From Chloroflexota bacterium (GTDB lineage Bacteria; Chloroflexota; UBA11872), in the NCBI GenBank assembly GCA_022824865.1, contig JAJDZD010000006.1, forward strand, positions 1-64,000: a stretch of DNA of 64,000 bases. The letters are read 5' to 3'. Position 1 is the stretch's first letter, and every line of letters starts with the position of its first letter. Below are positions 1,119 to 8,794 of the stretch, one piece after another. A model generated the notes under the pieces. The model was not told the origin of the DNA and made no database searches. It saw nothing but the letters and a program-made list of their open reading frames with translations. A program made the translations under genes and the position numbers.

Positions 1119-3194
1119 ATGAGCCCTGATGAGTTCCGGGGATTCGACAGCGACCAACTAGAGTTGCCTGCTGACCTGAAACAATTCCATCTCGCACTAG
1201 CTCCTGGTGCTGCAACTGCGCGCCCGATTTCACTTTGCCGAACTCAGCCACCTTCAGTGCCCGCCACATCAGCTAGGAGGCCCGCGCCATACGCAGAGTC
1301 AGCCGATAGGTCCGTCGGCCCACCTAAAGATCCCACACCCCGACCAGTCCTCAAATGGGCCGGCGGAAAGACCCAGTTGCTACCCCATCTCGTCCGCCAC
1401 GTTCCCGAACGCTTCAGCCAATATATCGAGCCGTTCTTCGGTGGAGGCGCTTTATTCTTTGCGTTGCGCCCAGTCAACTCGATCATTTCAGACTCCAACC
1501 CAGAATTGATCAACCTTTATCGCCAGATTGCAGACGACTTGGAAGGCGTTATAGAAGCCTTGACGCCATTTGAGAACGACGAGAATCAGTTTTATGAAGT
1601 AAGAGCGCTTCACTATCCAGACCTCGACCCAGTTACAGCCGCGGCCCGAACGATATATCTGAACCGAACCTGCTTCAATGGTCTTTACCGCCTCAACAGG
1701 AAAGGCGAGTTCAATGTTCCATTCGGCAAATACGAGAATCCTAGAATCTGTAATCCCGCCGCACTACGCGCTGCTAGCAATGCCCTGAAGTCGGCAACGA
1801 TACTTGAAGGTGACTACCGAGACGTCCTTCGCAAGCATGCACAACCGGGTGATTTCATCTATCTAGACCCACCGTACCTTCCAACCGCTCAATTCTCCGA
1901 CTTTCAACGATACACTGCATCGCAATTCCACGAAGAAGACCATTACGAACTTGCTGACGAAGTGAAGCGTCTTATTGATCTATCCTGCCACGTGATATTG
2001 ACAAATTCCAATCACCCTCTCGTATATGACCTCTACGAAGATTGCGCAATACAAGCAGTGAGCACCAAGCGCAACATCAATAGTCGCGGCGATCGCAGGA
2101 TTGGAACCGATGTCATTCTTACCAACAACACGCCCGCAGTTCCTGATATAAGCGCATCCCACACAGCCTTCAAGGAGCAAGTAGAGAGGTTTCCGTCCAC
2201 ACGATATATGGGCTCGAAAGAAAAACTCATACACCACATTTGGAACGCAGTGCGCGAGCATGACTTTCACAACGTACTAGATCTTTTCTCTGGTACAGGC
2301 GTGGTTTCATACATGTTCAAGGCCGCCGGAAAGCAAGTATTGTGTAACGATCATATGACAATGTGTGAGGCTGCCGCGGTTGCAATGATTGAGAATAATA
2401 CTACTTGCTTAGAAAACTCCGAAATAGATGAATTGCTGCAGCCGTGTGACGAAGGAGACGACTTTGTACAGTCCACGTTTCCAAACCTTTACTTCAGCGA
2501 AGAAGACAATAAGACCATAGACTCGATCCGTGCCAACATTGCGAGGCTTGGAGACCGCTACAAACGCGCGATCGCGTTATCTGCACTTGTTAGGGCGTGT
2601 GTGAAGAAGCGTCCGCGCGGGGTTTTTACTTTTGTCGGAAACAGATACGATGATGGGCGCAAAGATCTTGTGTTGTCCATAGAGGACCACTTTCGTATTG
2701 CAGCCGACTTGATAAACTCAGCGGTCTTTGACAACGGTCAAAATAATCAGGCTTGGTGTGGAGATGCGATGACCGTGAGTGGTACACCCGACTTGGTTTA
2801 CATTGACCCTCCCTACTTCAGTCCGCTATCAGACAATGAATACGTGCGCAGGTATCACTTCGTTGAAGGTATATCTCGCGATTGGCAGGGCGTCGAGATT
2901 CAGTGGCATACTAAGACCCGCAAATTCAGGGGTTACCCGACGCCTTTCTCATCTTATGAAGGTGCCAGAAGTGCGTTCGAAGATCTATTTCGACGCTTTA
3001 GAAACAGCATTCTGGTGGTCTCATATTCGTCAAATGCACTTCCGCAGCAAGAGGAGATAGCGGCCTTGATGGCAAGGTATAAGCATCAGGTGCGCGTGGT
3101 GTCAATGGACCATCGGTACTCATTTGGAAATCAGGCACACAAGATTGATGACAATAAGAATCGTGCTAAGGAATATCTCTTTATAGGGTCATAG
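1119..3194 (+). CDS. Fused two-domain D12-class (Dam/DpnM-like) N6-adenine DNA methyltransferase
   Basis: Domain 1: VLKWAGGKTQLL, EPFFGGGALFF, FNVPFGKY, YLDPPY. Domain 2: RYMGSKEKLI, LDLFSGTGVVSY, YIDPPYFSPLSDNEYVRRYHFVEG. The ORF is open from 1056; the ATG at 1119 (MSPDEFRG) is a plausible start. Confidence 0.93.
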   Translation: MSPDEFRGFDSDQLELPADLKQFHLALAPGAATARPISLCRTQPPSVPATSARRPAPYAESADRSVGPPKDPTPRPVLKWAGGKTQLLPHLVRHVPERFSQYIEPFFGGGALFFALRPVNSIISDSNPELINLYRQIADDLEGVIEALTPFENDENQFYEVRALHYPDLDPVTAAARTIYLNRTCFNGLYRLNRKGEFNVPFGKYENPRICNPAALRAASNALKSATILEGDYRDVLRKHAQPGDFIYLDPPYLPTAQFSDFQRYTASQFHEEDHYELADEVKRLIDLSCHVILTNSNHPLVYDLYEDCAIQAVSTKRNINSRGDRRIGTDVILTNNTPAVPDISASHTAFKEQVERFPSTRYMGSKEKLIHHIWNAVREHDFHNVLDLFSGTGVVSYMFKAAGKQVLCNDHMTMCEAAAVAMIENNTTCLENSEIDELLQPCDEGDDFVQSTFPNLYFSEEDNKTIDSIRANIARLGDRYKRAIALSALVRACVKKRPRGVFTFVGNRYDDGRKDLVLSIEDHFRIAADLINSAVFDNGQNNQAWCGDAMTVSGTPDLVYIDPPYFSPLSDNEYVRRYHFVEGISRDWQGVEIQWHTKTRKFRGYPTPFSSYEGARSAFEDLFRRFRNSILVVSYSSNALPQQEEIAALMARYKHQVRVVSMDHRYSFGNQAHKIDDNKNRAKEYLFIGS

Positions 3195-3202
3195 GTGACA
3201 TC

Positions 3203-4987
3203 ATGTGGCACATTGGAAATACGACTGTTAGGACTCCCTACCGGCTTCGAGGAGCGTTGATTGCACTGAGCAACTCATCGCTGCACGGAAATCTACTGGG
3301 ACCGGACAATGAACGCGCATTTGCAGACTTGCTTCATGACCAGGGTGTGTTACACGCATCTCGACGAGTTTCTTCGCCTAGCACAGATCGATCGGACCTA
3401 GGACGAAAATGGCGCGTCGCTCTTGCGCAGCTTGGCTTCGTCACGTACCACTTCACTAGACGACACCGATACGGTGTGGACAATAAACTCCGGCCATTCG
3501 TGGAAGGGATCGATGGTTTAACCGGCCAACCTTACGAGATCACGCCTGTCGGACGATTACTGATTGAAGCAGAGGAGACAATCTCTCAACAAGAGACCTT
3601 CCTGAGAGTACTAGCTGCGTACCGCATTCCCTCGCCTCTGGAGACTCGCTATCGGCACTGCCAGTTTTCGCCTTTACTGTTTATATTGCATATCCTGGGA
3701 CGGCTAGAAGAATGTGAGATGCACCCGGTGATTTCGTTCGAGGAAATGGCTCTTGTTGTGCAGCGGAGCACGGCTGAAGAAGGCGCTGAATCAGCCGTTG
3801 CAAGCATTCGAGACTTGCGAACATCTCGCCAAGACTCGGGCATCTCTGCGCGACAGTTCTTCAGTCAGGCCTACACCGAGGCAGTGTTGTCCGATAGTCC
3901 GACACTCGATCCTGAGGGCATTAGGAGACGATCCACGACTTGGGACGATTACGCTGACCTTAATATCCGCTATTTGAAAGCCACTGGTCTCTTTAGTAGC
4001 AAGGGTCGTGGCATCACGGTGTCGTCGGATCGAAGTCACATAGTCGAGCATCTCAAAGATGAGGCTGACGTCGTCCTGGATGATGATGCATACGTGCGGC
4101 GGTTGTGGCAAGGTGCGGCACTACCGACGGATGACCGGCCGACGGCAATTGTCGTCTCGCGGCATCTTGAGCAGTTGATTCGCGAAAAGGGTTCAGAGCC
4201 TGAAGTAGTTGACTTTGAAACATTGGACGATCAGCATTTGCAGTTCGCTCGACACCGGCTTGAAGCTAAACTTCAACGCATCAATGAAGGCGACTTTGCT
4301 ACTGAGCAAGTGAATCAAGTACCGGAGATAGTTGGCCTAATGGACGCGATCCTAGCTCGAGGTCGAAAGACCCTCGAGGATGGCAGCCTAATAGTGATTC
4401 CTAAGGGAGAAACTGCGGTTTATATGGAATGGACCATTTGGCGCGCCTTCTTAGCTATCGATTCGCTAGCAAACGAGCCTTGGAAGGCTCGGCGTTTCGA
4501 CGTTGACCAAGACCTATTGCCAGTTGGGCATGCCCCCGGGGGCGGCCCAGACATGAGTTTTGTATTCGAGGATGCTGTCGTGGTCGTAGAGGTGACACTC
4601 ACGTCATCATCGAGACAAGAGGCAGCAGAGAGTGAGCCTGTTCGTCGACACGTGGCCAAATATGCACAGGAAAACACGACTCAAAAGGAGGTGTACGGAC
4701 TATTTATTGCACCAAGAGTTGATACGAATACGGCTCACACGTTTCGAAGCGGCGATTGGTACGCACCGGATGACTCCAAGATCAATGTGCACATCGTTCC
4801 TATGGAGCTGAGAGACTTTCGAGACTTTTTCCAGGCGATTCTCTTGAATCCGCCTGAGTCCGCTCGTCTATTACGTGATCTTCTCATGCAGTGTCGAATG
4901 GAGGCGAATCAGGACGCCCCTCAGTGGAAGAGGAAGATATCAGAGCTTACACGGCGCGCTAGTGCTAGAGTTATCGAGTCTAAGTGA
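3203..4987 (+). CDS. Type IIS restriction endonuclease, BstNBI/AlwI/MlyI/PleI family
   Basis: Starts 8 bp after the methyltransferase. WTIWRAFLAI...LLPVGHAPGGGPDMSFVFEDAVVVVEVTL...ESEPVRRHVAKY...YGLFIAPRVDTNT matches the catalytic region of N.BstNBI-type enzymes as I remember it. Confidence 0.88.
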   Translation: MWHIGNTTVRTPYRLRGALIALSNSSLHGNLLGPDNERAFADLLHDQGVLHASRRVSSPSTDRSDLGRKWRVALAQLGFVTYHFTRRHRYGVDNKLRPFVEGIDGLTGQPYEITPVGRLLIEAEETISQQETFLRVLAAYRIPSPLETRYRHCQFSPLLFILHILGRLEECEMHPVISFEEMALVVQRSTAEEGAESAVASIRDLRTSRQDSGISARQFFSQAYTEAVLSDSPTLDPEGIRRRSTTWDDYADLNIRYLKATGLFSSKGRGITVSSDRSHIVEHLKDEADVVLDDDAYVRRLWQGAALPTDDRPTAIVVSRHLEQLIREKGSEPEVVDFETLDDQHLQFARHRLEAKLQRINEGDFATEQVNQVPEIVGLMDAILARGRKTLEDGSLIVIPKGETAVYMEWTIWRAFLAIDSLANEPWKARRFDVDQDLLPVGHAPGGGPDMSFVFEDAVVVVEVTLTSSSRQEAAESEPVRRHVAKYAQENTTQKEVYGLFIAPRVDTNTAHTFRSGDWYAPDDSKINVHIVPMELRDFRDFFQAILLNPPESARLLRDLLMQCRMEANQDAPQWKRKISELTRRASARVIESK

Positions 4988-5100: not shown

Positions 5101-6831
5101 CTAGAGGTCGATGTCTTTGGCCCAAACGAGATGGGCGTTTTTCGCGAGCTTCTTTTGGCGATCTGAAATCTGGACCAAGCCCCACTCATCAAAAGAACAG
5201 AGGGAATTTGTCAGTTCCAACGCCTGTCTCTTGTAAAAGTTCTTCTTGGCCTCAAAAGGCAGGTCTCTGGCCCCGCGATTGGCTCTATCATTGAAAAGGG
5301 CTTGATTCCCTAGCCTGTTCAAAGCGGGCTCGATAGACCGACCGAGATGTTCCATTTGGTCTAGTCCGTTAGGCACGCTTTCACCCAGGTCCTCGATCCA
5401 TTGCCTCACATTCTTGGTTAGACGTCTGCCGTTGATAAGCTTGCTTACTACAGACTTCGGCAGTATATGCTCGACGTGAACCTCAATTGGCTGGACGCCA
5501 GAACCAGGACGACTGATGGGATCGAGTCTGCGAAGGAGATGACGTGCAGTTCTCGGTGACTTTACGACCGCGTTCTCGAGTCGAAGTCGAAACTCCTTGT
5601 CCGGTACCATGCACTGTCGGATCTCATCGAACGCTTGTCTGGCTCTCCCTTCTCGAACGAGAATAGCCCAACGCGGCCAGTCCTTTTCGTACGCATTCGC
5701 CTGTTGAGGTCCGACGGTCACGTTCCGTATCTGCAATGACAGCACTAAGTTGACCGCATTGGGAAATGAAGCCGGCAAAAACCTATGAATCATCATCAGG
5801 AAACTGTGCGACTGAACATTCAGGAAATTGAGGTCGCGCAAGTCTTCGGTTAGCGATGACTTGTCCGATGGCGCAACGACAGCAAGGTAACTGTCGCAAC
5901 AATTCTCTAGTTCATTTGCAAAGTCGTTGAGTCGTTCTGGCTGTGAAAGTCTCGTCGCTATGCGATCGAGAGTACGCTTGGAGGTGTAACCTTCCTTCGA
6001 ACACCAGACGGCGTGGAGATAGTCGTCCATTGCGTCAATCGCTTGACCGGAGCGTTCGAGCTTGACTGCTGCGGTATTCCATTTGGCTATCAGCTCTCTA
6101 GACAAACGCGGATCTTCTCGAGCCACGGTGGCTAAGCGAGCCTTTAGTGCCTCCGATGGTGAGGGACGTAATCCGCGCGTGTTGCTTGTATCGAAGACAA
6201 GATAACCTTCTCCCTCGCTACCTACTTGGAGGGGGAGAATGTAGACTCTCGACTGAATGTACTCGCATAGATTGCGCAAGTTTTCTTGAGGGTTAGGAAC
6301 GTTGAGGTACTGCTCGACGTGGTTGTTGATTCTCTTCATCGCGCGTGACAATAAGTCGTCGTGAAATACAGCGGGCTGTGTTGATCCATCTTCCTTGACC
6401 AACTTCATATATATTTCGTTATCAGGATCTTGCAGTGTTACTACTAGAGGCCCGACTGGATTCCCATCGTTATCGACACGGGTTATGAGTCGTTGTATAC
6501 CGTCGGCTCTCGTTGAGAGATCTGTGAATTGTCGGCAACGGTCTCTCAGTACAGCTAAGAGTATAGATAGGGTTGTGATCCGTTGCTGTCCGTCGATTAC
6601 AGAGACGCGCGAAATCTCATCCAGGCTTACTAGGAGAAGTGTGCCAAGGAAATACGAATCTCGGTTAGCCTCATATGCGGCTAGTATGTCTAACCACAAT
6701 TGGTCGACCTGGAGATTCCCCCACTTGAATCGTCTCTGGGGAGGATGAATCTCGAACAATAGGCCATTCGTATCGGAAAACAGGCTGATGGCATTTATGG
6801 ATTTGTCGCTAATCTTGACAAGTGTTTGCAC
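5101..6831 (-). CDS. DUF262 + DUF1524 (GmrSD-like, Type IV restriction/HNH-type) protein
   Basis: N-terminal FEIHPPQRRFKW...VSVIDGQQRITTLSILL (DUF262, DGQQR motif). C-terminal HVEHILPKSV...LGNQALFNDRANRGARDLPFEAKKNFYK (DUF1524, HxxP and N..N.. motifs). Confidence 0.88.
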   Translation of the reverse strand: MQTLVKISDKSINAISLFSDTNGLLFEIHPPQRRFKWGNLQVDQLWLDILAAYEANRDSYFLGTLLLVSLDEISRVSVIDGQQRITTLSILLAVLRDRCRQFTDLSTRADGIQRLITRVDNDGNPVGPLVVTLQDPDNEIYMKLVKEDGSTQPAVFHDDLLSRAMKRINNHVEQYLNVPNPQENLRNLCEYIQSRVYILPLQVGSEGEGYLVFDTSNTRGLRPSPSEALKARLATVAREDPRLSRELIAKWNTAAVKLERSGQAIDAMDDYLHAVWCSKEGYTSKRTLDRIATRLSQPERLNDFANELENCCDSYLAVVAPSDKSSLTEDLRDLNFLNVQSHSFLMMIHRFLPASFPNAVNLVLSLQIRNVTVGPQQANAYEKDWPRWAILVREGRARQAFDEIRQCMVPDKEFRLRLENAVVKSPRTARHLLRRLDPISRPGSGVQPIEVHVEHILPKSVVSKLINGRRLTKNVRQWIEDLGESVPNGLDQMEHLGRSIEPALNRLGNQALFNDRANRGARDLPFEAKKNFYKRQALELTNSLCSFDEWGLVQISDRQKKLAKNAHLVWAKDIDL

Positions 6832-8415: not shown

Positions 8416-8461
8416 GGTTTGGTTGGTTGGGTGATTTACCCGACGTTGGTTGCTGAGGTGC

Positions 8462-8706
8462 GCAGCCACCCTCACCCTAACCCTCTCCCTCAAGGGCGAG
8501 GGGATAAGAGGAGGCGCTCGGCAGCGGACTGGGCTATCGCCCGGGCTTGGGTGGTAGGGGTGGCAGCCACCCTCACCCCAGCCCTCTCCCTCAAGGGCGA
8601 GGGAGGAAGAGGGAGATGCGGGGCGGTGGGTCGGGCTGTCGCCCAAGGTGGGGTGCTGGGGCTGGCAGCCACCCTCACCCCAGCCCTCTCCCTCAAGGGA
8701 GAGGGG
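8462..8706. repeat. Three tandem copies (period about 101-102 bp) of a repeat containing GCAGCCACCCTCACCCCAGCCCTCTCCCTCAAGGGCGAGGG
   Basis: Copies begin at 8462, 8563 and 8665. Each has the inverted repeat CCCTC(T)CCCTCAAGGG(C/A)GAGGG, and the spacers are also similar (GGGCTRTCGCCC...). Confidence 0.9.
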
Positions 8707-8794
8707 AAAGATCGGAGCCACGGGGTGGTGGGTGCGGCCTTTTGGGCGGAGTCGGGGGTAAGTTGGGAATCGGTGAACTGTAGACGGAGGCGCG

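Follow-up and report, generated by a model that had tools for sequence, protein, structure and literature searches.

An AlwI-family nuclease and a fused two-domain methylase form a probable GGATC restriction–modification system in a Chloroflexota genome

In the AlwI, EacI, and GmeI systems, two methylases are joined in one chain, which makes GG(6mA)TC and G(6mA)TCC (PMC4081073; PMC3526280). AlwI (R.AlwI, GGATC 4/5; M.AlwI) combines an AlwI-family restriction endonuclease with a single-chain, two-domain N6-adenine methylase (PMC4081073; PMC3526280). GmeI of Geobacter metallireducens (M.GmeI, Gmet_3140; GmeIP, Gmet_3138) shares the fused methylase, whose GGATC/GATCC specificity was assigned by SMRT sequencing (PMC3526280). 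MlyI, a GAGTC system, has instead a single GASTC methylase (PMC4081073). Also specific for GAGTC are N.BstNBI and R.BspD6I, in which a nicking large subunit works with a separate small subunit. M.FokI (GATG/CATC) serves an asymmetric site with a pair of 6mA methylase domains in a single polypeptide. The first-pass annotation of the locus described here had used M.FokI for comparison; the likeness in having two domains stands, but M.AlwI and M.GmeI have replaced it as the proper model for the methylase. MhoVII (GATG/CATC) is likewise a single chain with two 6mA methylase domains and an asymmetric target (PMC12898733). The locus shares this two-domain build with M.FokI and MhoVII, but its nuclease branch and probable target differ from theirs.

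The window, a stretch of 64,000 nucleotides from a Chloroflexota bacterium, has an AlwI-family nuclease gene beside a gene for a two-domain D12 N6-adenine methyltransferase (an M1–M2 fusion; 1119..3194, plus strand). On the methylase protein, Pfam MethyltransfD12 matches two separate stretches (E 8.6e-80 overall), and a six-frame DNA search places a Dam/DpnM-like domain 1 at 1356..2078 (E 1.6e-60) and a second D12 methyltransferase with a differing target-recognition region, domain 2, at 2205..2996 (E 1.0e-18), both on the plus strand. Each domain has an FxGxG motif (FFGGGA at residue 106; FSGTG at residue 390) and a DPPY motif (residues 250 and 563), confirming the initial reading of one ORF with two complete D12 domains, the arrangement expected of a methylase adjacent to an AlwI-type nuclease. 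PADLOC also identifies the gene as MTase_II; one Type II methylase model, PDLC03261, spans residues 72–690 (E 1e-270). The start of the ORF, given as 1056/1119–3194, is in doubt because the roughly 70 residues read from the ATG at 1119 have no equivalent in most relatives. Their codon-position base composition is also unlike that of the remainder, and the GTG at 1257 may be the true start, yielding a methylase of 645 residues, closer to the usual length of the family.

The nuclease ORF (3203..4987, plus strand; 594 residues) begins 8 bp after the methylase, as first noted, and the two genes are thus closer than those of GmeI, which are parted in Geobacter by a 333-residue ORF. The nuclease matches Pfam RE_AlwI over profile positions 12–438 of 441 (E 7e-108), that is, over the whole length of the family, and the PADLOC REase_II model covers it at near full length (E 3e-116). 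Together with the two D12 matches, the RE_AlwI match lies far beyond chance and bears out the early description, in which a two-headed D12 methylase and an AlwI-family nuclease make up a Type IIS system. The motif claimed for the nuclease core, GPDM...EVT...E, is present; its D450, E463, and E476, each 13 residues apart, are invariant across nine aligned sequences and are presumably the catalytic acidic residues. Their spacing agrees in the alignment with the core of N.BspD6I, a solved structure that the nuclease resembles in the catalytic domain (E 3.5e-25).

The C-terminal catalytic domain is homologous to that of N.BstNBI and R.BspD6I. Of the initial joint label of BstNBI/AlwI type, only the AlwI half is upheld. 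A full-length match to nicking-endonuclease models, as expected of a BstNBI/BspD6I-type enzyme, was sought among the PADLOC models and only partial matches to the C-terminal half were found (residues 334–540 and 429–515; E 1e-23 and 2e-15). These partial matches, and the GAGTC type of the solved relative, are what would be expected if the system targeted GAGTC, like BstNBI, PleI, and MlyI, rather than GGATC. But they are far weaker than the full-length REase_II match, MlyI carries one GASTC methylase rather than two (PMC4081073), and domain 1 of the methylase holds the full Dam set of residues that contact GATC. We regard a GAGTC target as very improbable.

The residues of domain 1 can be compared with those of enzymes whose contacts with GATC are described. 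Its nearest solved structures are DpnM of DpnII (E 1.7e-56) and Escherichia coli Dam (E 6e-37), and it scores as Dam above the cut-off of TIGR00571 (E 1.2e-80). In E. coli Dam, K9 contacts the first base pair, L122 and P134 the third, and R124 the fourth, and Y119 intercalates (PMC10073500). The equivalents of the Dam contacts in domain 1 are K79, F186, L189, R191, P201, and Y205. Those of K9, L122, R124, P134, and Y138, the last of which we take to be a further base contact, are thereby retained, and phenylalanine replaces Y119. The contacts are likewise kept in fused relatives, apart from the K9 position in the phage, whose protein as annotated begins beyond it. By homology, these residues suggest a GATC core for the target of domain 1. 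They would also suit a general, Dam-like GATC methylase with a redundant or degenerate domain 2, for which the TIGR00571 score could be cited as well; however, the FxGxG and DPPY motifs of domain 2 are intact, the domain is retained, fused or separate, in relatives with the same type of nuclease, and characterized fusions make both five-base motifs (PMC3526280). We think this alternative quite improbable.

The published AlwI, EacI, and GmeI fusions, and the single methylase of MlyI, therefore make GGATC, with one strand per domain, the best reading of the target. The first-pass annotation had suggested both a GGATC-like target and one strand per domain, in agreement with what is published for these systems (PMC4081073; PMC3526280). 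Other GGATC-containing motifs in the literature belong to GGATCC/RGATCY systems and were set aside. We also looked for GGATC-specific avoidance in two genomes with the system and three without it, and found no signal. The observed/expected ratio of GGATC is 0.91 in the window's own genome (sampled at ∼0.73 Mb) and 0.90 in a sister genome with the system, against values of 0.72, 0.84, and 0.96 for the three members of the same genus that lack it. Avoidance was dropped as a test of specificity, as similar or greater depletion is seen in two of the three relatives that lack the system; GAGTC, mildly depleted in all genomes compared, is equally uninformative. Since avoidance is silent, the assignment of specificity rests on homology.

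We infer from characterized relatives, with a probability of about 0.88, that the locus is an AlwI-type (Type IIS) restriction–modification system for GGATC with a fused methylase and a nuclease that cuts both strands. The observations behind this reading are the gene layout, the families to which the proteins belong, the conserved residues of the catalytic core and of Dam-type base contact, and the repeated presence of the pair on plasmids and phages. The N-terminal part of the nuclease would read GGATC, and the enzyme, as a transient dimer, would cut both strands ∼4/5 bases downstream through its C-terminal PD-(D/E)xK-like site. The fused methylase would shield the host by marking the top strand as GG(6mA)TC with one of its domains and the bottom strand as G(6mA)TCC with the other. 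As far as can be judged against the published description, the locus differs from AlwI in organism only.

Double-strand cutting is less certain if the nuclease resembles its solved relative in function: N.BspD6I, homologous in the catalytic domain, is a nickase in nature, and a gene for a small subunit was not found. When a second RE_AlwI gene, corresponding to the small subunit of BspD6I, was sought in the window's own genome, there was one match in total, and the gene next to the nuclease on that side is GmrSD-like; this absence is not absolute because the genome is ∼92% complete. A strand-specific nickase or an inactive nuclease would leave a locus that serves mainly for methylation. But the full-length match is to a model other than those of nicking enzymes, the ORF is unbroken, its acidic core residues do not vary in the alignment, and AlwI dimerizes for double-strand cleavage (PMC12898733). 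A nicking or inactive enzyme is thus unlikely, and a double-strand cutter remains the preferred reading.

Relatives of the pair are found on mobile elements of several groups of bacteria. Searches with tblastn located relatives on 13 plasmids and one phage, and a scan of viral contigs added seven more. A fused methylase with an adjacent nuclease occurs in Geobacillus pGS18, Erysipelothrix phage phi1605, Priestia, two Acinetobacter plasmids, and an uncultured conjugative plasmid; nuclease identity is 37–45% in the Geobacillus, Priestia, and Acinetobacter plasmids and the Erysipelothrix phage. In pGS18 of Geobacillus stearothermophilus (WP_012301083/WP_012301084), a Dam-family fused methylase is followed by an AlwI-family nuclease, as in the window (58% and about 43–45% identical, respectively), but the cassette sits on a conjugative plasmid among neighbor genes unlike those of the window. 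Within the phylum, 12 of 400 genomes have an RE_AlwI match, and in the scan of genome contigs the sister genome was the sole match. Other genomes of the phylum (loci L131, L132, and L133) encode larger RE_AlwI-type nucleases of 655–747 residues that form a separate branch; the adjacent ORF is distinct from the nuclease and has one DPPY motif.

In the sister genome (G308; L001/L130), which is of the same genus, the nuclease is 84% identical to that of the window and the methylase is predicted to be split. Its linker (L001 4080–4140) has an in-frame TAG directly followed by an ATG, giving two separate proteins. The nuclease tree joins the window and the sister with full support, and this pair lies within a group (99/99) whose other members are all fused. 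Because the pair nests among fused members, the fission in the sister is placed as derived. Genome G293 has a second, more distant pair of split methylases. Separate methylase proteins are already known in Mycoplasma agalactiae (PMC12898733), so the sister's split is not a new kind.

The pair lies in an island of low GC, ∼0.50 from about 1.0 to 7.0 kb compared with ∼0.67 on either side. The island also holds a convergent gene, GmrSD-like (DUF262/DUF1524) and a candidate Type IV-type defense nuclease (5101..6831, minus strand; Pfam GmrSD_N 1.5e-22 and GmrSD_C 1.3e-14; PADLOC HEC-06 6.5e-78). It is a neighbor of the nuclease gene and not part of the restriction–modification pair; two more GmrSD_N genes are elsewhere in the genome. 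To the right of the island is a Zincin_2 metallopeptidase gene of normal GC. Little of the left flank is present, since window position 1 appears to be where the contig starts. Positions 1–1000 hold G-rich, noncoding-looking interspersed repeats, with 58 matches in the genome and dozens in most genomes of the genus; similar repeats lie around 8457–8733.

In relatives, other cargo is flanked by the sequence that in the window runs on from ∼7210 and by a short block corresponding to ∼744–939. The cargo consists of a PLD-helicase and a Type ISP/IIG-like methylase-nuclease in G069; two N6/N4 methylases, an Fe-S-domain protein, and an uncharacterized protein in G085; and an FRG-domain protein, a large methylase, and an uncharacterized partner in G157. 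Four genomes of the genus, that of the window included, thus have four different low-GC, methylase-bearing cassettes at the spot. A low-GC insert at the Zincin_2 spot was looked for in G308 and G205, and none was found. The short left block also adjoins other low-GC DNA elsewhere (G173; contig 46 of G157). Because cassettes differ at the same spot across relatives, the Zincin_2 site appears, in a comparison of six genomes (the window with L165, L166, L167, L168, and L169) with gene order rearranged in some, to be a place where DNA-modification defense cassettes turn over.

The layout is already published for AlwI, EacI, and GmeI, and the system is ordinary for its type; the separate methylase heads of the sister, and a site with different restriction systems in related genomes, are only slightly fresh. 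The locus is one more AlwI-type system, in Chloroflexota, and it confirms that plasmids and phages carry this layout between phyla. We lean modestly toward the view that a cassette at a turnover spot, together with a methylase recently split within the genus, provides a natural test of whether strand-specific fusion matters. If the split in the sister is real, it would offer a clean comparison of fused versus separate strand-specific methylases, and the swap site is a possible place for further defense genes in the genus.
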